Positions 49,731 through 62,286 of a DNA stretch of 64,000 nt are shown here, one piece after another. The stretch comes from Ignavibacteria bacterium (GTDB lineage Bacteria; Bacteroidota; Ignavibacteria; Tepidaquicellales; OLB5). The stretch spans positions 1 to 64,000 of the forward strand of contig JADZAP010000032.1 in assembly GCA_020852705.1 (NCBI GenBank). The letters run 5' to 3'. Below the pieces are notes generated by a model. That model was not told the origin of the DNA and searched no databases. It worked only from the letters and a program-made list of their open reading frames with translations. Each line of letters begins with the position of its first letter. Position 1 is the stretch's first letter. Position numbers and translations under genes: made by a program.

Positions 49731-50603
49731 CTATTTCACTAAACTCATTTTGTTTGTCTTAATTTGCCCGTTTGATTCAAGTCTATAATAATAAATCCCG
49801 CTCGAAAGATTTGATGCATCAAAATCAACTGTATATTTACCTGATGCAAGTTCTTTTGAAACCAATGTTTTTATTTCTGAGCCTGTTGCATCAAAAACTT
49901 TTAATGTTGTAAATCCGGTTTTCGGAATATCAAATTTAATTTTTGTAACCGGGTTAAACGGATTAGGATAGTTTTGATACAACTCAAACTTTGTTGGTAC
50001 AACATTTGGATCATGTGAAATTCCCGTCGGTGGGTCGCCAAATACGGCAATACTATCTAAAACCATTCCGTGTCCGTCTGAATCCTTGTGAACAAATGAA
50101 AGGAAAATGCTTTGACCTGCCCAGGTTGTCAGCGGAAAACTGTATCTTCTCCATACTATATTCTCTGCCCCAACCGGAATGCAATGAACACATACACTTC
50201 CTGCGTATTGAGTAAAGCTGGCTTGGTTTGAATCAGTTGTTGATACTCTGACAAGTAATGAATCGTACGGATATGGACCATCACTGAACTGCTTTATTAA
50301 CCAGAAAACAACTGAATCACCTGCAACAATACCGTTTATCCTTGAGGAAATCAGCCAATCTTCACCTTGTGGGGCATTGTAGTTAATAAACGCAACTGCT
50401 GTACCATGTTTTGCATTATTAGTACCAAAAGCAGCAGAAAGAGGTGCTGTAATCCGGGTCCATACTACAGATCCTGAAACATTTATAGCTCTCCATCCCG
50501 GTGGGGGTACTGAAGTCTCAAAACTCTCAAAAAGTTTTGTTACCTGTGAATTAATGGTAACTGTTGATAATGCGAAAAATAACAAAATGACTAGTTTTTT
50601 CAT
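49731..50603 (-). CDS. T9SS cargo: choice-of-anchor J domain protein
   Basis: Secreted 290-residue protein with signal peptide (1-19, ending NSQ). The middle domain (about 24-190) has the jelly-roll pattern of the choice-of-anchor J/MAM-like family: FESFETSVPPPGWRAINVSG, DWLISSRI and VFWLIKQFSDGPYPYDSLLV. Sorting signature at 211-218. Such domains bind or anchor to surface glycans in other T9SS cargo. It is divergent from the HPPD gene, so the 216-base gap holds two promoters; I saw a bulged 12-bp hairpin at 50641-50672 there. Confidence 0.87.
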   Translation of the reverse strand: MKKLVILLFFALSTVTINSQVTKLFESFETSVPPPGWRAINVSGSVVWTRITAPLSAAFGTNNAKHGTAVAFINYNAPQGEDWLISSRINGIVAGDSVVFWLIKQFSDGPYPYDSLLVRVSTTDSNQASFTQYAGSVCVHCIPVGAENIVWRRYSFPLTTWAGQSIFLSFVHKDSDGHGMVLDSIAVFGDPPTGISHDPNVVPTKFELYQNYPNPFNPVTKIKFDIPKTGFTTLKVFDATGSEIKTLVSKELASGKYTVDFDASNLSSGIYYYRLESNGQIKTNKMSLVK

Positions 50604-50819: not shown

Positions 50820-51962
50820 ATGGATACATTGGCAACCGAAAAAAAGGCAGCATCTGCAGGTAATTCAGCGGATTTTTTGCCAATAAAGAACTGGGATCAT
50901 GTTGAATTCTATTGCGGGAATGCAAAACAATCTGCTATATATTACCAGTATGCAATGGGCTTTAAACTTACAGGATATTGCGGACTTGAAACAGGTAACC
51001 GCGAAAAAGCTTCTTACCTCTTAGAGCAGGGAAAGATAAAATTTGTTTTAACTACTCCGTATCACCCAGAAAATTTTATCGCTGAACATATTAAACAGCA
51101 CGGCGATGGAGTTAGAGATATTGCTCTTGAAGTTGATGACGCTGAAAGTGCATTTAACGAAACCCTTAAGCGCGGTGCCATTCCTGTTTTAGAACCTTCC
51201 AAGTTTGAAGATGAAAATGGTTATATTGTTCGCTCTGCAATAAAAACCTATGGTGATACTATTCACTCGTTTATTCAAAGAAATAATTATAAAGGATTTT
51301 TCCTCCCGGGTTTTGTTGATGCTTCCGCAAAAGCAGTAAACGGTATTACTGATGTTGGGTTAAGGTCTATTGATCACATGGTTGGAAATGTTGAACTTGG
51401 CAAAATGAATTTTTGGGTTAAATTCTATGCTGAAACTATGGGCTTCAATCAGCTTCTTTCATTTGATGATAAAGATATTTCAACTGAATACACCGCTTTA
51501 ATGAGTAAGGTTATGCAAAACGGCACAGGTAAAATAAAATTTCCTATAAATGAACCTGCTGCCGGAAAGAAAAAATCTCAGATTGATGAATACCTTGAAT
51601 TCTATCACGGTGCAGGGTGTCAGCATATTGCTATGAATACTACTGATATTGTTGGTACAGTTAGCGAACTTAAAAGAAGGGGAGTTGAATTTCTCAGGGT
51701 TCCAACTACCTATTATAAGGAATTGGAATCAAGAGTTGGCAAAATTGATGAAAATATAGATGAGCTTGCTAAACACGGAATTCTTGTTGACAGGGATGAT
51801 GATGGTTACCTGCTCCAGCTTTTTAGTAAACCAATCGAAGACAGACCAACTGTGTTCTTTGAAATTATTCAGCGAAAAGGTGCTAAATCTTTTGGTAAAG
51901 GAAACTTTAAAGCCTTATTTGAAGCTATTGAAAGAGAACAGGAATTAAGAGGTACATTATAG
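50820..51962 (+). CDS. hppD: 4-hydroxyphenylpyruvate dioxygenase
   Basis: Turns 4-hydroxyphenylpyruvate into homogentisate in tyrosine breakdown, or feeds tocopherol or pyomelanin. Non-heme iron ligands are His186 (IDHMVGN), His269 (CQHIAMNT) and Glu348 (FFEIIQRKG), with the C-terminal helix that closes the site. Length 380 and both vicinal-oxygen-chelate halves are complete. homogentisate dioxygenase follows 30 bases later. Confidence 0.96.
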   Translation: MDTLATEKKAASAGNSADFLPIKNWDHVEFYCGNAKQSAIYYQYAMGFKLTGYCGLETGNREKASYLLEQGKIKFVLTTPYHPENFIAEHIKQHGDGVRDIALEVDDAESAFNETLKRGAIPVLEPSKFEDENGYIVRSAIKTYGDTIHSFIQRNNYKGFFLPGFVDASAKAVNGITDVGLRSIDHMVGNVELGKMNFWVKFYAETMGFNQLLSFDDKDISTEYTALMSKVMQNGTGKIKFPINEPAAGKKKSQIDEYLEFYHGAGCQHIAMNTTDIVGTVSELKRRGVEFLRVPTTYYKELESRVGKIDENIDELAKHGILVDRDDDGYLLQLFSKPIEDRPTVFFEIIQRKGAKSFGKGNFKALFEAIEREQELRGTL

Positions 51963-51992: not shown

Positions 51993-53171
51993 ATGGCATA
52001 TTATCATAAGCTGGGTAAAATACCGCAAAAAAGGCATGTACAATTCAGACAGCCGGACGGCTCTCTTTATCAGGAACAGGTTATTGGCACTGAAGGATTT
52101 TCAGGAATTTCATCTATTCTGTACCATATAAATCCACCTACTAAAGTAAAAAAAATTGAAAAAATAGAAGACATAGGTTTTAAGCAGTGGGATAACGATG
52201 AACTTAGACACATTCATCTGCATACTTTAGGTTCAAAACCCAATGGAGATCCAATTTCAGGAAGACATGTTGTATTGTTTAATAATGATATTTCTATGGC
52301 TATTTGTAATCCTGCCTCAGCAATGGATTATTTTTATAAAAATGGCGGAGCTGATGAAGTAATTTTTGTCCATTACGGCTCCGGTACTCTGGAGTCACAA
52401 TATGGTACATTGGAATTTAAAGATGGTGACTATATTGTTATCCCAAGAGGAGTAATTTATAAAGTAATTGTAAATAGCAAAAAAACAAAATTCCTTGTAG
52501 TTGAATCAGCAAGTCCTGTTTACACTCCTTCCAGATATAAAAATTCTTATGGGCAGTATCTTGAACATTCTCCCTATTGCGAACGTGATTTCAGAGTTCC
52601 TGAAAAACTTTTAACTATTGATAAAAAGGGTGATTTCCTTGTAAAAATTAAAAAATATAATAAACTACATAATTATATTTATGATTTTCACCCCTGGGAT
52701 GTAGTTGGCTGGGATGGATATTTTTATCCTTGGATCTTTAACATTAATGATTTTATGCCTATCACAGGCAAAATTCATCAACCCCCGCCGGTACACCAAA
52801 CTTTTGAAGGCAGAAATTTTGTTATTTGTTCATTCTGTCCCAGACTTTTTGACTATCATCCCGAAGCAATTCCGGCTCCGTATAATCACAGTAACATTGA
52901 TAGCGATGAAGTACTTTATTATGTAGAAGGGCAGTTTATGTCACGCAAGGGAGTTGATGTTGCATCTTTCACCCTGCATCCTGCAGGTATTCCGCATGGT
53001 CCGCACCCTGGAACTATGGAAGCTTCTATTGGTAAAAAGGAAACTCTTGAACTTGCTGTGATGATAGATACATTTCATCCGTTAAAACTAACCGAATATG
53101 CAAAACAATTTGATCAGCCAAATTATCCTTTTACTTGGAATGAAGAAGGACATGAAGCTGAAATTGAATAA
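51993..53171 (+). CDS. hmgA: Homogentisate 1,2-dioxygenase
   Basis: Opens the homogentisate ring to maleylacetoacetate. The N-terminal YHKLGKIPQKRHVQFRQPDG is typical, and the metal site lies in HSNIDSDEVLYYVEG (His and Glu) and IPHGPHPG (His). Length 392 is slightly short of the human enzyme but fits bacterial forms. It is coupled to hppD in an operon. No isomerase or fumarylacetoacetase gene is adjacent. Confidence 0.95.
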   Translation: MAYYHKLGKIPQKRHVQFRQPDGSLYQEQVIGTEGFSGISSILYHINPPTKVKKIEKIEDIGFKQWDNDELRHIHLHTLGSKPNGDPISGRHVVLFNNDISMAICNPASAMDYFYKNGGADEVIFVHYGSGTLESQYGTLEFKDGDYIVIPRGVIYKVIVNSKKTKFLVVESASPVYTPSRYKNSYGQYLEHSPYCERDFRVPEKLLTIDKKGDFLVKIKKYNKLHNYIYDFHPWDVVGWDGYFYPWIFNINDFMPITGKIHQPPPVHQTFEGRNFVICSFCPRLFDYHPEAIPAPYNHSNIDSDEVLYYVEGQFMSRKGVDVASFTLHPAGIPHGPHPGTMEASIGKKETLELAVMIDTFHPLKLTEYAKQFDQPNYPFTWNEEGHEAEIE

Positions 53172-53281: not shown

Positions 53282-54562
53282 ATGAAGAATATTTTGAATT
53301 ATAATAAAATAATATTTATTTTCTGTTTGTTTGCCTCTCAATCATTTCTTTTGGCTCAAAGCGGTTGGTTTCAGCAATCAAGTTCTACAAATAAATCTTT
53401 AAAATCGGTTTCTTTTTTAAATGATAATACCGGTTTTGCTGCTGGCAGTGGCGGAGTAATTTTAAAAACTACTAACAGCGGTATTAATTGGATTAATATT
53501 TATTCTGTTGTTATTTACGATGTAAGAACTGTGTACTTTATTAATATTTCAACAGGTTGGGCTTACATTAAAGGAAATATATCTGATAGTACTTTTGTTA
53601 TTAAAACCATAAATTCAGGTTTAAATTGGAGCAAAAGTTTTATTGATACATCAAACACGTTATTTAGTGCTGCTGAAATTAAGTTCCTAAATGAAAATAC
53701 TGGTTATATGGTAAATTCCATAAATGTAAGAAAAACTACTAACGGTGGTTCAAATTGGCAGGTGCTTTACCCTAATGTTACAATTCCTTCCTGCCTGTAT
53801 TTTCTGAACGAAAATACCGGCTGGGTTGCAGGCTTTCAAACAAGCATTTATAAAACTTCCAATGGGGGGTTAAACTGGGCTCAGCAATTTGAAAATCAAA
53901 CTAACACTTCCAGCCGTAAAATAATTTTTCTCAACAATTCAACCGGGTTTTATGCTACAGACTACGGTGTTTACTCAACTACAAACAGCGGTGAAAATTG
54001 GAACGAAAGTTTTTATGTCTTCAATATTTACCCTATTGCTTTATCCTTTATAAACAGCAATACCGGCTGGTGTTTATCTTCTATTGCTGATACTTCTTTA
54101 CGGAATGTTATTCTTAAAACTACAAATTCAGGTGTAAACTGGAATATATATGAATTAAATCTGCAAAACAAAAAATTTAACTCTATCTTCTTTTCATCAC
54201 AAAATACAGGGTGGATTGCAGGTGATTCCGGTTATATTTACAGGTCAACTAACGGGGGTGTTCCTATTGGCATTCAGCCTACAGGAAATAATATTCCCCT
54301 TAATTTTTCATTATCACAAAATTATCCTAATCCGTTTAATCCTGTTACAAATATTAATGTTGATTTACCGCGAAATACACATACTCTATTAATTATATTT
54401 GATGCATTAGGAAGAGAAATTGATAAACCGGTAAATAATATCCTTCCTCCCGGATCATATAGATTTGAATGGGATGCCTCAAATTATCCAAGTGGTGTGT
54501 ATTTTTATAAATTAATTGCCGGAAATTATATTGAAAGTAAAAAAATGATTCTTATTAAATAA
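53282..54562 (+). CDS. T9SS cargo: Ycf48/BNR-type beta-propeller protein
   Basis: Secreted 426-residue protein with signal peptide (about 1-26). Six or seven propeller blades with N-T-G-W and K-T-T-N-x-G patterns run to about residue 335, so it is a single-domain cousin of the protein at 31589-33424 without the fibronectin-like modules. Sorting signature at 347-354. It is a single-gene unit between two terminators. Confidence 0.87.
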   Translation: MKNILNYNKIIFIFCLFASQSFLLAQSGWFQQSSSTNKSLKSVSFLNDNTGFAAGSGGVILKTTNSGINWINIYSVVIYDVRTVYFINISTGWAYIKGNISDSTFVIKTINSGLNWSKSFIDTSNTLFSAAEIKFLNENTGYMVNSINVRKTTNGGSNWQVLYPNVTIPSCLYFLNENTGWVAGFQTSIYKTSNGGLNWAQQFENQTNTSSRKIIFLNNSTGFYATDYGVYSTTNSGENWNESFYVFNIYPIALSFINSNTGWCLSSIADTSLRNVILKTTNSGVNWNIYELNLQNKKFNSIFFSSQNTGWIAGDSGYIYRSTNGGVPIGIQPTGNNIPLNFSLSQNYPNPFNPVTNINVDLPRNTHTLLIIFDALGREIDKPVNNILPPGSYRFEWDASNYPSGVYFYKLIAGNYIESKKMILIK

Positions 54563-54752: not shown

Positions 54753-56495
54753 ATGATACTTTCAGAAACTACAATTCAAAATATAGCTAATGCTCATTAT
54801 GTAAACGGTATTCTGCCTCATAACTATCTGGTTAAATACCGCAATATATTTGAGCTGCTGCAGTACAGGGCACATTTACACCCTGAAAAAAACTACATTA
54901 CTTTCTACCCTGATGGTTCCGAAAAAAAGGTGCTTTCTTACAAAAATTTTGTTGAAATGGTTTATAAAACCGCAAATTTCCTGAAAGCTCATGGTATAAA
55001 TCCGGGAACAAGAATTGCAACTATATCTCATAATCACATAAATACCGTTATTCAGTATTTTGCTGCATGGTGTACGGGTGCAACCGTTGTGCCTATAAAT
55101 GTTAACGAAGAACCTGATAGGATTGAATATATTCTGCAAAGCTCACTCACAGTACTTGCCTTTATTAATTCCGAATTTTATAATAAATTTTCTGATGTAT
55201 TTAGTAAACTTAATATAAAACCTGTAATCTATTCTGATTCCGAATTTAATATCTCCAAAGGATGTGTTGACTTTATTAATGAAATTAATAATCAACCTCC
55301 TGATTTTATGCCTGATGATGCTGTGAATCAGGAAACAGAAGCGATGATTGTTTATACCTCGGGTACTACGGGTTTACCTAAAGGAGTGGTTTTAACCCAA
55401 TATAACCTGCTGATTGATTCCGATGGCATTAGCAAGTGGCACAAAATAACAAAAGAAACTGTTATGATGTGTGTATTGCCTATTCATCATGTTAATGGTA
55501 CTGTAGTTACTATTTTAACACCAATGTATTCAGGGGGGTCAGCAATACTAAATCAGAAATTTCATACGGATAAATTTTTTAAAATACTTTCAGATGAAAA
55601 AGTTAATGTAGTAAGCGTTGTTCCAACCCTGCTGCAGTTTCTTTGCCATGAGTTTGAATTAAATAAAAAGTTTTTGAAAAATAGTATTACACTCCGTTCA
55701 GGTGAAAATTTGAAGATGAAGTTAAATCACTTCAGTCATATAATTTGCGGTGCAGGTCCGTTAACTTGTGAGCTTGTTCAAAAATTTGAAAATATGTTTG
55801 GCTTAAAAATTGTTCATGGGTATGGACTTTCTGAAACTACATGTTATTCATGTTTTATCCCGATTGATCTTAATGCCGATTATCACAACAAATGGCTGCT
55901 TAACCACGGATTTCCAAGCATTGGCATAGCTATTGAACCAAATGAAATGGATATACATAATGAAAGCGGTGAGCCGCAAGGTGAAAATATAAGAGGCGAA
56001 ATAGTTGTCAGGGGACATAATATTATGAAATATTACGATGAAAATACCGAAGCAAATGATAAAACTTTTGAATTTGGCTGGTTCAGAAGCGGTGATGAAG
56101 GTTTTTACCTGTTTGATGATAAAGGAAGGAAATATTTTTTTATTACCGGAAGACTTAAAGAACTGATTATAAGAGGCGGAATTAATATTGCACCGCTTGA
56201 AATTGATGAAGTATTAAATTCTATGCCGGATATAAAATCAGCTATTGCTGTTGGTTTTGAAAATGACTGGTATGGCGAAGAAGTTGGTGCCCTTGTTTTA
56301 CTGAATGAAAATATAGATGAATCAGATGATTTAAAAAATAAGATTATTCAATATTGCAAATCTAAACTCCCCTCATATAAAGCACCCAAAGTTGTGGTAT
56401 TTTCAGACGCAATTCCTGTTACTTCTACCGGTAAATATCAGCGTAATAAAGTTAAATATCTTTTTGCTGAGTTTAAAACCCAGCAGTATAAATGA
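54753..56495 (+). CDS. AMP-forming acyl-CoA synthetase / acyl-AMP ligase
   Basis: Class I adenylate-forming enzyme of 580 residues from ATG 54753; an upstream start at 54720 would lie at the terminator. Core motifs are MIVYTSGTTGLPKGVVLTQ (198-216), GYGLSETT (about 356-364), the block GWFRSGDEGF, ITGRLKELIIRGG, and the C-terminal lysine K561 in TSTGKYQRNK, so it should adenylate a carboxylate. Substrate is unknown. Its stop overlaps the next start by four bases (ATGA), so it is co-translated with an RlmN-like radical SAM enzyme. Confidence 0.9.
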   Translation: MILSETTIQNIANAHYVNGILPHNYLVKYRNIFELLQYRAHLHPEKNYITFYPDGSEKKVLSYKNFVEMVYKTANFLKAHGINPGTRIATISHNHINTVIQYFAAWCTGATVVPINVNEEPDRIEYILQSSLTVLAFINSEFYNKFSDVFSKLNIKPVIYSDSEFNISKGCVDFINEINNQPPDFMPDDAVNQETEAMIVYTSGTTGLPKGVVLTQYNLLIDSDGISKWHKITKETVMMCVLPIHHVNGTVVTILTPMYSGGSAILNQKFHTDKFFKILSDEKVNVVSVVPTLLQFLCHEFELNKKFLKNSITLRSGENLKMKLNHFSHIICGAGPLTCELVQKFENMFGLKIVHGYGLSETTCYSCFIPIDLNADYHNKWLLNHGFPSIGIAIEPNEMDIHNESGEPQGENIRGEIVVRGHNIMKYYDENTEANDKTFEFGWFRSGDEGFYLFDDKGRKYFFITGRLKELIIRGGINIAPLEIDEVLNSMPDIKSAIAVGFENDWYGEEVGALVLLNENIDESDDLKNKIIQYCKSKLPSYKAPKVVVFSDAIPVTSTGKYQRNKVKYLFAEFKTQQYK

Positions 56496-57466
56496 AACTT
56501 ATTTCTTCACATGGAAACAAAGACCTTTCTATAGTTTATGTTGCCCAAACCGCAAATAATGAATTAATAGAATTTGTTGAATCACTGCAGCCCCCAAAAA
56601 CAAGAGAAGAAAAGTGGGTTCTCATTTTATCAGTTTTATATGGCTGTGCCGTTAAATGCAAAATGTGTGATGCCGGTTCATATTACCGAGGCAGGTTATC
56701 CAAAGAAGCAATTTTCTGGCAGATTGATAACTTAATTTCAAGAAGATATCACGATGGTAAAGTCCCTTCTAAACTGCTTAAAGTGCAATTCACCAGAATG
56801 GGGGAGCCGGCTTTTAATTCTAATGTATTAAAAGTTATTGATGAATTTGATATTTATTTTAATGCCCCGGGTTTTATGCCTTCTATTTCTACTATTGCCC
56901 CAAAATCAACTGATGGTTTCTTTGAAGAAATGCTGGAAATTAAAAATAATAAATTCAATCATGGTAATTTTCAATTACAGTTTTCAATTCATACAACTGA
57001 TGAAATATTAAGAGATGAGTTGATACCCGTAAAAAAATGGAGCTTTAAAGAAATAAGTAACTATGGCAGCAGATTTTATACTGAGGAAGGCAGAAAAATT
57101 AGCTTAAGTTTTGCTGCATCAATACAATATCCTGTAATTCCTGAATTACTTTTGCAGTATTTTGATCCTGCTAAATTCTTAATTAAATTAACCCCTCTTA
57201 ACCCTACATATAGTTCAAAAGAAGCTGGTCTTACATCTGTTATTGATGAATTGAATTTTACGGATAATTTAAAATTAGCTGATGATTTCAGAACTTGCGG
57301 ATATGAATTAATTATAAGTTTGGGCGAATTTGAAGAAAATTACATTGGAAGCAACTGCGGACAGAATATTATTACTCATGCAGTTTCACATGATACCCTT
57401 GAAACTGCTTATCCTAAGCTTGATGAAGATTTAAAGTTGAAAATCAACGAAATTGTAAATAAATAA
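56492..57466 (+). CDS. RlmN-like radical SAM enzyme without RNA-binding domain
   Basis: Protein of 324 residues. The radical SAM cluster motif is C-A-V-K-C-K-M-C (Cys52, 56, 59), followed by MGEPAFN, SIHTTDEILRDELIPV and KLTPLNPTYSS, all in the order of the RlmN/Cfr 23S rRNA adenosine methyltransferases. The methyl-carrying cysteine of RlmN (Cys355 in E. coli) aligns with Cys289 in SNCGQN. The RlmN resolving Cys118 position (seven before the cluster) is Ile45, and the N-terminal RNA-binding domain of about 70 residues is absent. It may methylate a small or carrier-bound substrate made by the ligase. This is inference. Confidence 0.88.
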   Translation: MKLISSHGNKDLSIVYVAQTANNELIEFVESLQPPKTREEKWVLILSVLYGCAVKCKMCDAGSYYRGRLSKEAIFWQIDNLISRRYHDGKVPSKLLKVQFTRMGEPAFNSNVLKVIDEFDIYFNAPGFMPSISTIAPKSTDGFFEEMLEIKNNKFNHGNFQLQFSIHTTDEILRDELIPVKKWSFKEISNYGSRFYTEEGRKISLSFAASIQYPVIPELLLQYFDPAKFLIKLTPLNPTYSSKEAGLTSVIDELNFTDNLKLADDFRTCGYELIISLGEFEENYIGSNCGQNIITHAVSHDTLETAYPKLDEDLKLKINEIVNK

Positions 57467-57536: not shown

Positions 57537-58514
57537 TTATTTAACTAAAAGCATTTTCTTTGTTTCTGTAAAACTTGATGTTTCTAATCTGTAGAAATAT
57601 GCTCCGCTTGAAAGATGTGATGCATTAAAGTTTATTTCATAACTTCCTGCATTAACATTCTGATTTACAAGTGTTGCAATGTTTTTACCTGTAATATCAA
57701 AAACTGTAATCTTTACATTACCGCTTACAGGAACTGCGAATTGTATCTTGGTTTCAGGATTAAACGGGTTTGGATAATTCTGTTTTAAATTGAATTTATC
57801 CGGAACGTTGCTGCTTATTGGAGTAATTCCTGTTAATGGACCTACTAACCTTATTAAATCATAACCAACATAATCGCTATTATTTCCGGCAGGCCCGCCT
57901 TGTGCAACACGATAGTTAATTGCGAATCTTCCTGTAGCACCAGCTGTAGGGATAACAAATCTTCTTTCCTGCCATGATCCTGAAGTAGTATTTTTAAATT
58001 TTCCAAGCTCTACCCATGAAGCTGTACCCGGAACGCTGTCACCATTTGATGCCCAGTGTACACGCATTGAATCAGGGAATGTTGAACCAGTTGGAGCTCT
58101 TTCATAGAATGTGATTGTATCGCCTGGTCCAGCATTTACAACCGGAGAAATTAGCCATAAATCAATTGTATTAGAGCCGGTTGTTGCATTAAAGTTTGAA
58201 CCAAGATATCCAGTTGATGGTCCCTCAAATGCGGGGAAAACTTGGTCATTTCCCTGGAAATAAAATGTGGAACCAATAGGACCGTGAAGCGGACCTCTTT
58301 TGGGAATCCATCCTCTTGCTTTTAAGCCATTGGTATCATTAGCGCCATTCATATCATCAGAAAATTTTACATCGTTACTAAAACTTACTGGTGGATTATA
58401 GCTGTTATCAGATGTTGACTGTGTTTTTGAGCCAAACTGGTCTAAGTAAAGCATGCCTGTAATTAATATACCGGCAATCACCAGACTTAAAAATGGAATA
58501 ATTCGTTTAATCAT
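57537..58514 (-). CDS. T9SS cargo: choice-of-anchor J-like domain protein
   Basis: Secreted 325-residue protein; the N-terminal helix FLSLVIAGILITGMLYL acts as signal or anchor. The central domain (about 50-215) has the features of choice-of-anchor J: LWLISPVVNAGPGDTITFYE and SMRVHWASNGD, and a later VGYDLIRLVG strand. Sorting signature at 246-253. It resembles in layout the protein at 49731-50603. A Shine-Dalgarno GAAAGGA lies before the ATG. Confidence 0.86.
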   Translation of the reverse strand: MIKRIIPFLSLVIAGILITGMLYLDQFGSKTQSTSDNSYNPPVSFSNDVKFSDDMNGANDTNGLKARGWIPKRGPLHGPIGSTFYFQGNDQVFPAFEGPSTGYLGSNFNATTGSNTIDLWLISPVVNAGPGDTITFYERAPTGSTFPDSMRVHWASNGDSVPGTASWVELGKFKNTTSGSWQERRFVIPTAGATGRFAINYRVAQGGPAGNNSDYVGYDLIRLVGPLTGITPISSNVPDKFNLKQNYPNPFNPETKIQFAVPVSGNVKITVFDITGKNIATLVNQNVNAGSYEINFNASHLSSGAYFYRLETSSFTETKKMLLVK

Positions 58515-58812: not shown

Positions 58813-59901
58813 TTATTTAACTAACATCATTTTTTTGGTTTCTTTGTAGTCACCTGAAGTTAATGTGTAGAAATATAGTCCGCTTGATAACTTTGATGCA
58901 TTGTAGTCAAATGAATAGCTTCCTGCTTCCATATTTTTGTTAACAACAACATCAACTTCTCTTCCCATTACATCATAAACCGCAATCTTTGTCATGCCGG
59001 CTTTTGAGAGGTCAAAAGATACTTTTGTGGTTGGGTTAAACGGATTTGGATAATTTTGCTTTAAGCTATAATTTACAGGAACCCCTGTGTTATTGTTTGA
59101 AATTGCAACCAAATTTGTCCCGTAAATTACAAATGGAAGTCCCTGAGGATTTGTTCCGTCCATTGCATTTCCCCAAACTCCTGCTAATTTCTGTTTGCCG
59201 TTTCCTGTTATAGGATTATTTAATATTGTTCTTGGTGGTGCCCAAGGTCCTGAACCTAATGAACCTCTAAAACTGAACTGAACCCAGTAATATCCTGCAG
59301 ATAATGTTGTGCTAAGAGTATCAACAACTGCCATTATAGGTCTGGTTGTTTGAGTATTATACGGAGGTGTAGCGGTTGTTCTGTATATATTTGACCAGTA
59401 AGTAGCGAGTAATCTGTTTGCAGTTGTATCACCTGAGTTTAATGTTACACCGGCACTATCAACTCTTCCGTTCCATATTGCAACATGACTGCCTGTAATT
59501 GTTGATGTTAACGGTGAACCTGTTTGGTAGCTGTAAAACTTAATTGAATCAATATGCCAGTTTTGACCTGCAGGTACTGTAAAAGCATCACCCATCCAGT
59601 TGTATAAATTTGCTTGACAGCCAAAACCATACAGCGTTCCGGGTGCAGTAATAAAGCTAACATCAGCTCCGCCCTGGCCCTGTCCGGGTGCGTTAACTAA
59701 TTCATTATGTGTATATAATGCAACAAGAGGGTCATCATAATTGTAACCCTGTATCTGATTTATATCACTCTGATATAAAATATTGCTTGGTGCAGAGTTT
59801 GTTACAACATCCTTATCATTACCGTTATTGGTAAAACCATAAACTAAAAGTGATAAAGATATAGCTGTAATTAAAGCTAAAATTGGAAAATTCTTTTTCA
59901 T
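58813..59901 (-). CDS. T9SS cargo protein, unknown domain
   Basis: Secreted protein. The start is set at the ATG at 59901, which has AGAAGGG about 10 bases upstream and gives a standard signal peptide (MKKNFPILALITAISLSLLV); an in-frame start at 59946 would add 15 basic residues. The middle (about 60-265) is strand-rich with Gly/Thr/Asn and no motif I know, with DAFTVPAGQNWHIDSIKFYS suggesting a jelly-roll or carbohydrate-binding fold. Sorting signature is 80 residues from the end, about 268-275 with this start. It is followed by its own terminator. Confidence 0.83.
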   Translation of the reverse strand: MKKNFPILALITAISLSLLVYGFTNNGNDKDVVTNSAPSNILYQSDINQIQGYNYDDPLVALYTHNELVNAPGQGQGGADVSFITAPGTLYGFGCQANLYNWMGDAFTVPAGQNWHIDSIKFYSYQTGSPLTSTITGSHVAIWNGRVDSAGVTLNSGDTTANRLLATYWSNIYRTTATPPYNTQTTRPIMAVVDTLSTTLSAGYYWVQFSFRGSLGSGPWAPPRTILNNPITGNGKQKLAGVWGNAMDGTNPQGLPFVIYGTNLVAISNNNTGVPVNYSLKQNYPNPFNPTTKVSFDLSKAGMTKIAVYDVMGREVDVVVNKNMEAGSYSFDYNASKLSSGLYFYTLTSGDYKETKKMMLVK

Positions 59902-60174
59902 AAATTGTACCCTTCTAATAAATAGTTTATAATAATTCTTTGTCAAATATGTAATTAAATACCTTATTAATCAAGTCTATTTATGAGAAATATTAACTTT
60001 GATTGTAGGAATTAATTATGTAATTTAAATAGAAATCAGATTATTTTATGACATTTTTAACCCTTTATTAATATTTTTATAATTCATATATTTGAAATCT
60101 TTGTGTTTTTAACACATCCTGTAAATAAACAATAAAAAATCTAAAAATATATTAATTTAAGGGGTAACATTGCT

Positions 60175-62286
60175 ATGGCAGAGAAAACAGCTGAAAAGAA
60201 AACTAAAGGAACTAATGGTGTTCAAAAAGATAGAAACAATGAAAAAGAAAGCTTAAGCTATGATTTCCATAAAGAAACAGAAAAGAATCACGGATTATCA
60301 AACGATGAAATGATTCATGCGTATAAATCCATGCTTCTTTCAAGGTTCACCGATGACAGAATTGATACTTTAATTAAACAGGGTAAAGCAACATTCCTTA
60401 TTTCCGGCTCCGGGCACGAAGCCGTTCAGGTAGCATGTGCAATGGCAATGCAGGGCGGTAAGGATTGGTTTTTTACTTATTATAGAGATAATGCGTTAGG
60501 TACAGCACTTGGTATTACTCCACTTGATATTTTCAGGCATATCATGGGGCGTGAAACTGATTCATTCACAGGTGGCAGGCAAATGCCTATGCATCTTGGT
60601 TCAAAAAAACTCAGAATGCCAACAGCTTCATCTCCAACCGGTTCACAATACCTGCAGGCAGTTGGTGGAGCATTAAGTTGCGTTTACCGTAATACAGATG
60701 AAATTGCTTATGTTGGAGGCGGTGAAGGCTCTACCAGTGAAGGTGAATTCTTTGAAGCAATTAACTGGGCTGCCCGCGAAAAACTTCCCGCAATTTTCTG
60801 CATTCAAAATAACCGTTTCGCAATTTCTGTTCCAATTGAACAGCAGACTGCGGGTGCTTCTGTATATAAAGTAGTTCAGGGTTTTGAAGGGCTTCATACA
60901 TTTCATATTGATGGTACCGATTTCCTTGAATCTTATGCAACCGCAAAAGAAGCTGTTAAACTTGCAAGATCTGGTGAAGGTCCCTCATTTATTTATGCTG
61001 ATGTGGTTAGACTTCGTTCACATTCAGCTTCTGATTCTCAGGATAAATACCGCTCAAAGGAAGCTATTGCTAATGATACAAAACGCGATCCCATTGCTAA
61101 ATTTGAAAAAGAACTTATTGCACGCGGTATATTAACACAAGAGGAAATTGATAAAATTAGGAAAGAACTTAATGATGGTGTTATAAAAGATGCTGAAACT
61201 TCATTTGCTGAACCGATACCTGACCCAAAAACTGTTGAAGATAACCTTTTCTGTCCTGCAAATGAACAGACTAAGATTAACTACGAATCATCCATTCCCT
61301 CCGGTGAACCAATTGTAATTGTTGATGCAATCAATCATGCGTTGATTGAAGAAATGGAAAAAAATCCAAATATGCTTATTTACGGTGAAGACGTTCAGGA
61401 TGGTAAAGGCGGAGTATTTACAGCAACAAAAGGTATTTCTACCAAATTTGGTGTAAAACGCTGTTTTAACTCACCGCTTGCCGAAGCTTCTATAGTTGGT
61501 ACTGCAGTTGGTGCTGCGTTAACCGGCTTAAAGCCTGTTGTTGAAATTCAGTTTGCTGACTACATTTTCCCTGCAATGATGCAGATACGTGATGAACTTG
61601 TTATGTACCGCTACCGTTCAAATGGTACATTTTACTGTCCCGTCACAATCCGGGTTGCTACTGGCGGGTATATTGGAGGAGGTCATTATCACTCCCAAAA
61701 TATTGAAGCTATTTTTGCAAAATGCCCGGGACTATATATTGCAATGCCTTCAAATGCTGCTGATGCAAAAGGTCTGCTTAAAACTGCTTGTCAAATTAAG
61801 GATCCTGTTATGTTTCTTGAGCATAAATTCCTATACAGGCAGGGTTATGCTAAATCACCTGAACCCGATGCTGACTACTATTTACCTTTTGGTAAAGCTG
61901 CAGTTAAAAAAGAAGGTAATGATCTTACAATTGTTACTTACGGTGCTTTAGTTGAAAAAGCTATGAAAACTTCCAGAGAAATGGAAAAAAAGGGTTACAG
62001 CGTTGAAGTTATTGATATCAGAACTATTGTTCCTTTAGATACAGATACAATTGTAAACTCAGTTAAAAAAACAGGTAAGGTGATTGTATTTCACGAAGAT
62101 ACAAAATTTATGGGCTTTGGTGCTGAAATTGCTTCGCAAATAGCTGAAGCGGCATTTGAATATCTTGATGCTCCTGTAAAAAGAGTTGCCGGATTGCATG
62201 TTCACATTCCTTTCAGTCTGGAAAGTACCGCCCTGCCGCAGGATAGCTGGATTCTTAATGCAGCCGAAGAAATGCTTGCATATTAA
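60175..62286 (+). CDS. 2-oxoacid dehydrogenase E1, fused alpha and beta subunits
   Basis: Thiamine-dependent decarboxylase of the branched-chain 2-oxoacid or pyruvate dehydrogenase complex. Residues about 45-335 are the alpha part, with the thiamine diphosphate site GGGEGSTSEGEFFEAINWAA (181-200) and NRFAIS. Residues about 375-703 are the beta part, with LIYGEDV, FADYIFPA, YHSQNIEA and the C-terminal transketolase-like half. The two are one chain here, where most bacteria have two genes. Thirty basic residues precede the alpha part. A Shine-Dalgarno AAGGGG precedes the ATG. E2 and E3 are not in the window. Confidence 0.93.
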   Translation: MAEKTAEKKTKGTNGVQKDRNNEKESLSYDFHKETEKNHGLSNDEMIHAYKSMLLSRFTDDRIDTLIKQGKATFLISGSGHEAVQVACAMAMQGGKDWFFTYYRDNALGTALGITPLDIFRHIMGRETDSFTGGRQMPMHLGSKKLRMPTASSPTGSQYLQAVGGALSCVYRNTDEIAYVGGGEGSTSEGEFFEAINWAAREKLPAIFCIQNNRFAISVPIEQQTAGASVYKVVQGFEGLHTFHIDGTDFLESYATAKEAVKLARSGEGPSFIYADVVRLRSHSASDSQDKYRSKEAIANDTKRDPIAKFEKELIARGILTQEEIDKIRKELNDGVIKDAETSFAEPIPDPKTVEDNLFCPANEQTKINYESSIPSGEPIVIVDAINHALIEEMEKNPNMLIYGEDVQDGKGGVFTATKGISTKFGVKRCFNSPLAEASIVGTAVGAALTGLKPVVEIQFADYIFPAMMQIRDELVMYRYRSNGTFYCPVTIRVATGGYIGGGHYHSQNIEAIFAKCPGLYIAMPSNAADAKGLLKTACQIKDPVMFLEHKFLYRQGYAKSPEPDADYYLPFGKAAVKKEGNDLTIVTYGALVEKAMKTSREMEKKGYSVEVIDIRTIVPLDTDTIVNSVKKTGKVIVFHEDTKFMGFGAEIASQIAEAAFEYLDAPVKRVAGLHVHIPFSLESTALPQDSWILNAAEEMLAY

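Follow-up and report, generated by a model that had tools for sequence, protein, structure and literature searches.

We analyzed a window of 64,000 nucleotides, i.e., the whole stretch of Ignavibacteria DNA under study, with a focus on two forward-strand genes at positions 54,753 to 57,466. An AMP-forming acyl-CoA ligase is followed here by an RlmN-like radical SAM gene, and the two overlap by four bases (ATGA), as the initial annotation had described. The genes, motifs and key residues lie as follows:

54753..56495, + strand: AMP-forming acyl-CoA ligase (ANL superfamily), 580 aa; ATG at 54753, stop at 56493-56495
55353..55385, + strand: ligase adenylation motif YTSGTTGLPKG, from the translation
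56492..56495, + strand: ATGA overlap between the radical SAM start codon and the ligase stop codon
56492..57466, + strand: RlmN-derived radical SAM protein, 324 aa; ATG at 56492, stop at 57464-57466
56624..56626, + strand: Ile45, at the position of the resolving Cys118 of RlmN, from an alignment of 54 sequences
56645..56668, + strand: CX3CX2C [4Fe-4S] motif with C52, C56 and C59, invariant in the alignment
56795..56818, + strand: RMGEPAFN, the SAM-binding GEP motif, with R102, G104, P106 and N109 invariant and E105 in 52/54 sequences
57356..57358, + strand: Cys289 in GSNCGQ, aligned with the methyl-carrying Cys355 of RlmN, invariant in 54/54 sequences

Both ANL domains were detected in the ligase (PF00501, 1.1e-66; PF13193, 1.2e-12), and its nearest solved structures are oxalyl-CoA synthetases (~200 bits). 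It scored 330 bits against PRK06187, under the cut-off of 476, and none of the 25 NCBIfam matches listed for it reached the cut-off of a specific equivalog. Around the pair, a fused alpha-beta E1 of 2-oxoacid dehydrogenase (60175-62286) is an old neighbor of the ligase across the class. A cupin protein (51993-53171) lies next to 4-hydroxyphenylpyruvate dioxygenase (50820-51962); its score against homogentisate dioxygenase (60.8 bits, cut-off 510.75) is far under that cut-off, which makes it a divergent relative. Four proteins around the locus end in a C-terminal sorting tail of the NYPNPFNP type (49731-50603, 53282-54562, 57537-58514, 58813-59946), and the number of related genes, which are interspersed among the ligase, radical SAM and E1 genes, varies by species.

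We evaluated the identity of the radical SAM protein through family models, fold and conserved residues. Its score against TIGR00048 (RlmN) was 40.9 bits for a cut-off of 290, and its scores against the Cfr models were 22–24 bits for cut-offs of 468–550. Given a TIGR00048 score this far below the cut-off, the protein is RlmN-like, yet outside RlmN. A canonical rlmN was detected on a separate contig of the same genome (G000:C40:124301-125344, 402 bits), as well as in most relatives. The radical SAM protein is therefore neither the sole rlmN of the genome nor its housekeeping rlmN, in agreement with the initial annotation, and shares 24% identity with the genome's own RlmN. The absence of the RNA-binding domain was likewise borne out: the N-terminal helical (HhH2) domain is missing both from the alignment with the genome's own RlmN and from the AlphaFold model (mean pLDDT 93.2), in which a beta extension and the radical SAM domain are retained. 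When this model was compared with solved structures by Foldseek, the best matches were RlmN (6fz6, TM 0.70), then Cfr (9p0p, TM 0.58), with spore photoproduct lyase third (4fhf, TMq 0.46).

At the residue level, the protein has in common with RlmN, the dual-specificity 23S rRNA/tRNA adenine-C2 methylase, the fold, the CX3CX2C and GEP motifs, an S-x-H...R...P segment, the methyl-cysteine loop xxCGQ and the N-terminal beta extension, but differs from it by the missing HhH2 domain, the missing Cys118 and other operon partners. The same class A catalytic-domain architecture is found in Cfr, the 23S rRNA adenine-C8 methylase, which itself has both an HhH2 domain and the corresponding Cys105. Position 45 is occupied by I (30), L (9), M (9) or T (6) across the 54 aligned sequences, and by Cys in 0/54. 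The two catalytic cysteines of RlmN and Cfr have published roles (PMC9692996), the N-terminal HhH2 domain of Cfr anchors the rRNA (PMC13001441), and RlmN or Cfr deprived of the resolving cysteine is left stuck covalently on its substrate (PMC9692996; PMC13001441). Since this cysteine is replaced across the family, the known RlmN/Cfr reaction route is impossible for it, and since two defining RlmN/Cfr features fail, we do not class the protein as RlmN or Cfr; at most, it would use a modified class A mechanism.

Short RlmN-like proteins with ~31% identity also occur in phages (phrog_24834; Moorella phage MTATph1, Bacteroides phage Versailles; genes at L178:7001-7939, L179:6833-7840, L180:6824-7699 and L181:5839-6627). 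They share with the window protein the lack of an HhH2 domain and of a Cys at the Cys118 position, but differ in that no hydrolase or flavoprotein is annotated alongside them, and two of the four stop before the Cys355 loop. In a crAss-like phage, the phrog_24834 gene is found near an SPFH/band7 gene.

To place the radical SAM gene in a broader context, we scanned bacterial and archaeal genome contigs, which yielded 510 relatives, and took the best 80 of the 510. Of these 80, 71 were from outside the Ignavibacteria, and the neighboring genes at these 71 loci, which are the top matches in one scan by query similarity and come mostly from metagenome-assembled genomes, were clustered. Three same-strand families recurred: the radical SAM gene itself, a flavoprotein directly upstream and a hydrolase upstream of the flavoprotein, so that the usual order is an isochorismatase-family cysteine hydrolase, a thioredoxin reductase (TrxR)-like flavoprotein and, last, the radical SAM gene. 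By the thresholds used, the radical SAM gene was called at 70 loci, with the flavoprotein at 59/70, the hydrolase at 47/70 and all three genes at 45/70; the flavoprotein and radical SAM genes overlapped by 4 bp in 33 of the 70. Several incomplete cassettes correspond to contig ends or broken frames, while about five look like real lone copies. The cassette spans bacteria and archaea (Chloroflexota, Zixibacteria, Cloacimonadota, Acetothermia, Thermoplasmata and others), and the same trio is found within the order and class of the window (G029, G019, G335, G211); in G161, the hydrolase lies downstream instead of in the lead. In G016, a single 581-aa reading frame (L046:8425-10170) encodes a fusion of flavoprotein and radical SAM protein. 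On plasmids, no relative was found at 1e-20. The window protein shares 44–63% identity with other members of the family, those in cassettes included. A GYxY-type tail follows the cysteine loop in many cassette members (alignments A1, A2) and has been lost in one clade of lone copies within the genus of the window. This tail could perhaps be a contact with the missing flavoprotein, although certain cassette members are likewise short.

The cassette hydrolase matches PF00857 (~1e-38), and its conserved D (LDMQ), K (KxQYDAF) and C (LCCE) fit the isochorismatase-family triad. It shares this domain and the triad residues with RutB, biuret hydrolase and nicotinamidase, but falls below every specific NCBIfam cut-off. 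The flavoprotein has FAD and NAD(P) domains in common with TrxR and with TrxR-type ferredoxin-NADP reductase (FNR), and matches TrxR structures and, more weakly, FNR structures. It reaches ~140–153 against TIGR01292, for which the cut-off is 343, and lacks the CxxC of TrxR, a motif that reads CATC in the genome's own TrxR. Flanking genes were considered as a guide to the pathway and set aside: the neighbors of cassettes in other phyla are diverse (they include a CooC-like ATPase, XdhC, an ECF sigma factor, DegV, a pterin-binding enzyme, DUF3786, malate dehydrogenase and PhoU), and none recurs often enough to assign a substrate. Within the open-access literature, we found no published description of the cassette and no paper joining RlmN with isochorismatase and radical SAM; the cassette is thus apparently undescribed so far.

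The pairing with the ligase has a much narrower distribution. A ligase gene followed on the same strand, within ~40 bp, by the radical SAM gene is found in 10 of the 13 genomes of the genus, seven of which share the 4-base overlap (G002, G003, G005, G008, G010 and G012 besides the window), and this close pairing is confined to the genus. Among relatives, ligase homologues at 1e-100 occur in 36/59, with the radical SAM gene present or absent: the ligase is found without it in G013 and G014, both of the same family as the window, as well as in many genomes of f2, and conversely the radical SAM gene lacks a close ligase homologue in G019, G029 and G038. At the loci of other phyla, no ligase homologue was detected within 6 kb (0/71). 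The initial annotation had called the ligase the only operon mate, which holds for the window, but the partners conserved across phyla are a hydrolase and a flavoprotein, both of them absent here: no relative of the cassette hydrolase was found in the window genome, and the sole match to the cassette flavoprotein was the canonical TrxR.

Comparison within the genus and its sister genus suggests how this arrangement may have arisen. In G013, which belongs to a sister genus and has no radical SAM gene, ~134 bases separate the ligase from the E1 gene that comes next, i.e., the site is empty; the ligase and this same E1 gene of the window lie on either side of the radical SAM gene. In G004, from the same genus as the window, the ligase, hydrolase, flavoprotein and radical SAM genes are consecutive (L031:2125-6451), which is likely the ancestral state of the window locus. 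From these gene orders, the simplest history would be the insertion of a whole cassette after the ligase, with subsequent deletion of its first two genes. In the radical SAM tree, G004 is placed beside G006 (96/91), and the window copy next to both (92/88). With a full cassette thus nested inside the genus, the partners must have been deleted more than once, or regained by G004. Their loss from the window genome makes the ligase, which is vertically inherited, probably only a chance neighbor of the radical SAM gene and probably not a functional partner.

Lone copies of the radical SAM gene show no general decay. For close lone-copy pairs in the genus, dN/dS of the gene was 0.057, 0.045 and 0.059; these low values were obtained between other species of the genus, while all comparisons with the window copy are near-saturated (0.14–0.21). 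Lone copies of the genus are thus under purifying selection, which, judging by these related genomes, probably extends to the window copy. Since lone copies persist both in the genus and at about five other loci, the partners are not strictly needed.

Taken together, we consider the window protein to be an RlmN-derived, non-ribosomal, class A-like enzyme encoded by the orphaned third gene of a three-gene module, a reading to which we assign a probability of roughly 0.55. Specifically, the module would have been inserted between the vertically inherited acyl-CoA ligase and the 2-oxoacid dehydrogenase E1 gene in the genus of the window, and a later deletion of the hydrolase and flavoprotein would have left the radical SAM gene coupled to the ligase stop codon. 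In the complete module, the flavoprotein, devoid of a redox disulfide, may pass electrons from NAD(P)H to the [4Fe-4S] cluster, either directly or via ferredoxin or flavodoxin; in the window genome, with both partners gone, these electrons would be drawn from a general ferredoxin or flavodoxin. Cys289 would first be methylated by SAM, and a second SAM would generate a 5'-deoxyadenosyl radical, and thereby a methylene radical on Cys289, which may attack an sp2 carbon of a substrate other than 23S rRNA. Release could then proceed via a base that replaces the missing Cys118 and is supplied by the substrate or the protein. The cysteine hydrolase would act in the same pathway, preparing or processing the substrate at an amide or similar bond. 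As the known RlmN mechanism stalls at the covalent adduct without Cys118, the enzyme may catalyze something other than methyl transfer altogether.

The main rival departs from this reading in the role of Cys289. In spore photoproduct lyase, a cysteine acts in radical hydrogen transfer, and Cys289 could similarly be a hydrogen-atom or thiyl cysteine, the enzyme performing radical hydrogen transfer, reduction or cross-linking instead of methylation. The loss of one of the two cysteines of class A enzymes, which leaves a single one, would fit such a role, as would the rank of spore photoproduct lyase among the fold matches and an NAD(P)H-type flavoprotein partner suited to a net reduction. However, the GSNCGQ segment around Cys289 is the methyl-cysteine loop of RlmN and Cfr, and the fold matches to these two enzymes are far better, so that we regard hydrogen transfer as rather unlikely. 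We are more doubtful that the protein is still an RNA methylase, active on tRNA or a small RNA without the HhH2 domain. Its RlmN ancestry and the beta-sheet extension retained before the radical SAM domain are consistent with this function, whereas the loss of the HhH2 domain, the canonical rlmN already present in the genome, and conserved partners (cysteine hydrolase and flavoprotein) of which none is RNA-related all argue against it.

The two remaining alternatives concern the locus more than the chemistry. The initial annotation had favored a two-step pathway in which the acyl-AMP, acyl-CoA or carrier-bound form of a carboxylate activated by the ligase serves as the methylation substrate of the radical SAM enzyme. 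The tight pairing across most of the genus, often with the 4-base overlap, speaks for it, but the phylogenetic profiles of the two genes are uncoupled, the sister genus carries an empty site, none of the 71 other loci has a ligase nearby, the conserved partner set is another one, and even within the genus the pair is split, by an opposite-strand gene in G009 and by the cassette partners in G004. Profiles, synteny and empty site together rule out the ligase as a conserved partner, and we now see the two-step pathway as improbable. Least probable of all, with only a very slim chance, is that the radical SAM gene is a functionless, decaying remnant in the genus. The loss of the cassette partners could be read in this way, as could a faster evolution of the radical SAM protein than of the ligase (dN ~0.32 and ~0.20, respectively, for the window vs other species) and the frameshift of the G003 copy at a run of seven A (L047:8928-9828), which may be an assembly error. 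Nevertheless, dN/dS is ~0.05 in close pairs, which disfavors a pseudogene, the catalytic residues are all retained, and every other full-length copy from the genus has an intact reading frame.

The interest of this locus lies in the cassette from which the radical SAM gene of the window originates, not in its pairing with the ligase, and the pair illustrates that a 4-base overlap alone does not prove a shared pathway. We tentatively propose, at somewhat less than even odds, that this widespread and so far undescribed module runs RlmN chemistry on a single cysteine, together with a flavin reductase of its own and a cysteine hydrolase, and that the target of its methylation or cross-linking is a small molecule or a protein, not RNA. 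To our knowledge, every class A radical SAM methylase characterized so far has an RNA substrate and depends on two cysteines. A conserved family that has the methyl-carrying cysteine only and no RNA-binding domain, and is associated with a reductase and a hydrolase in numerous phyla of bacteria and archaea, would pose the question of how a covalent intermediate is released without Cys118, and would extend class A chemistry to a new class of substrates.
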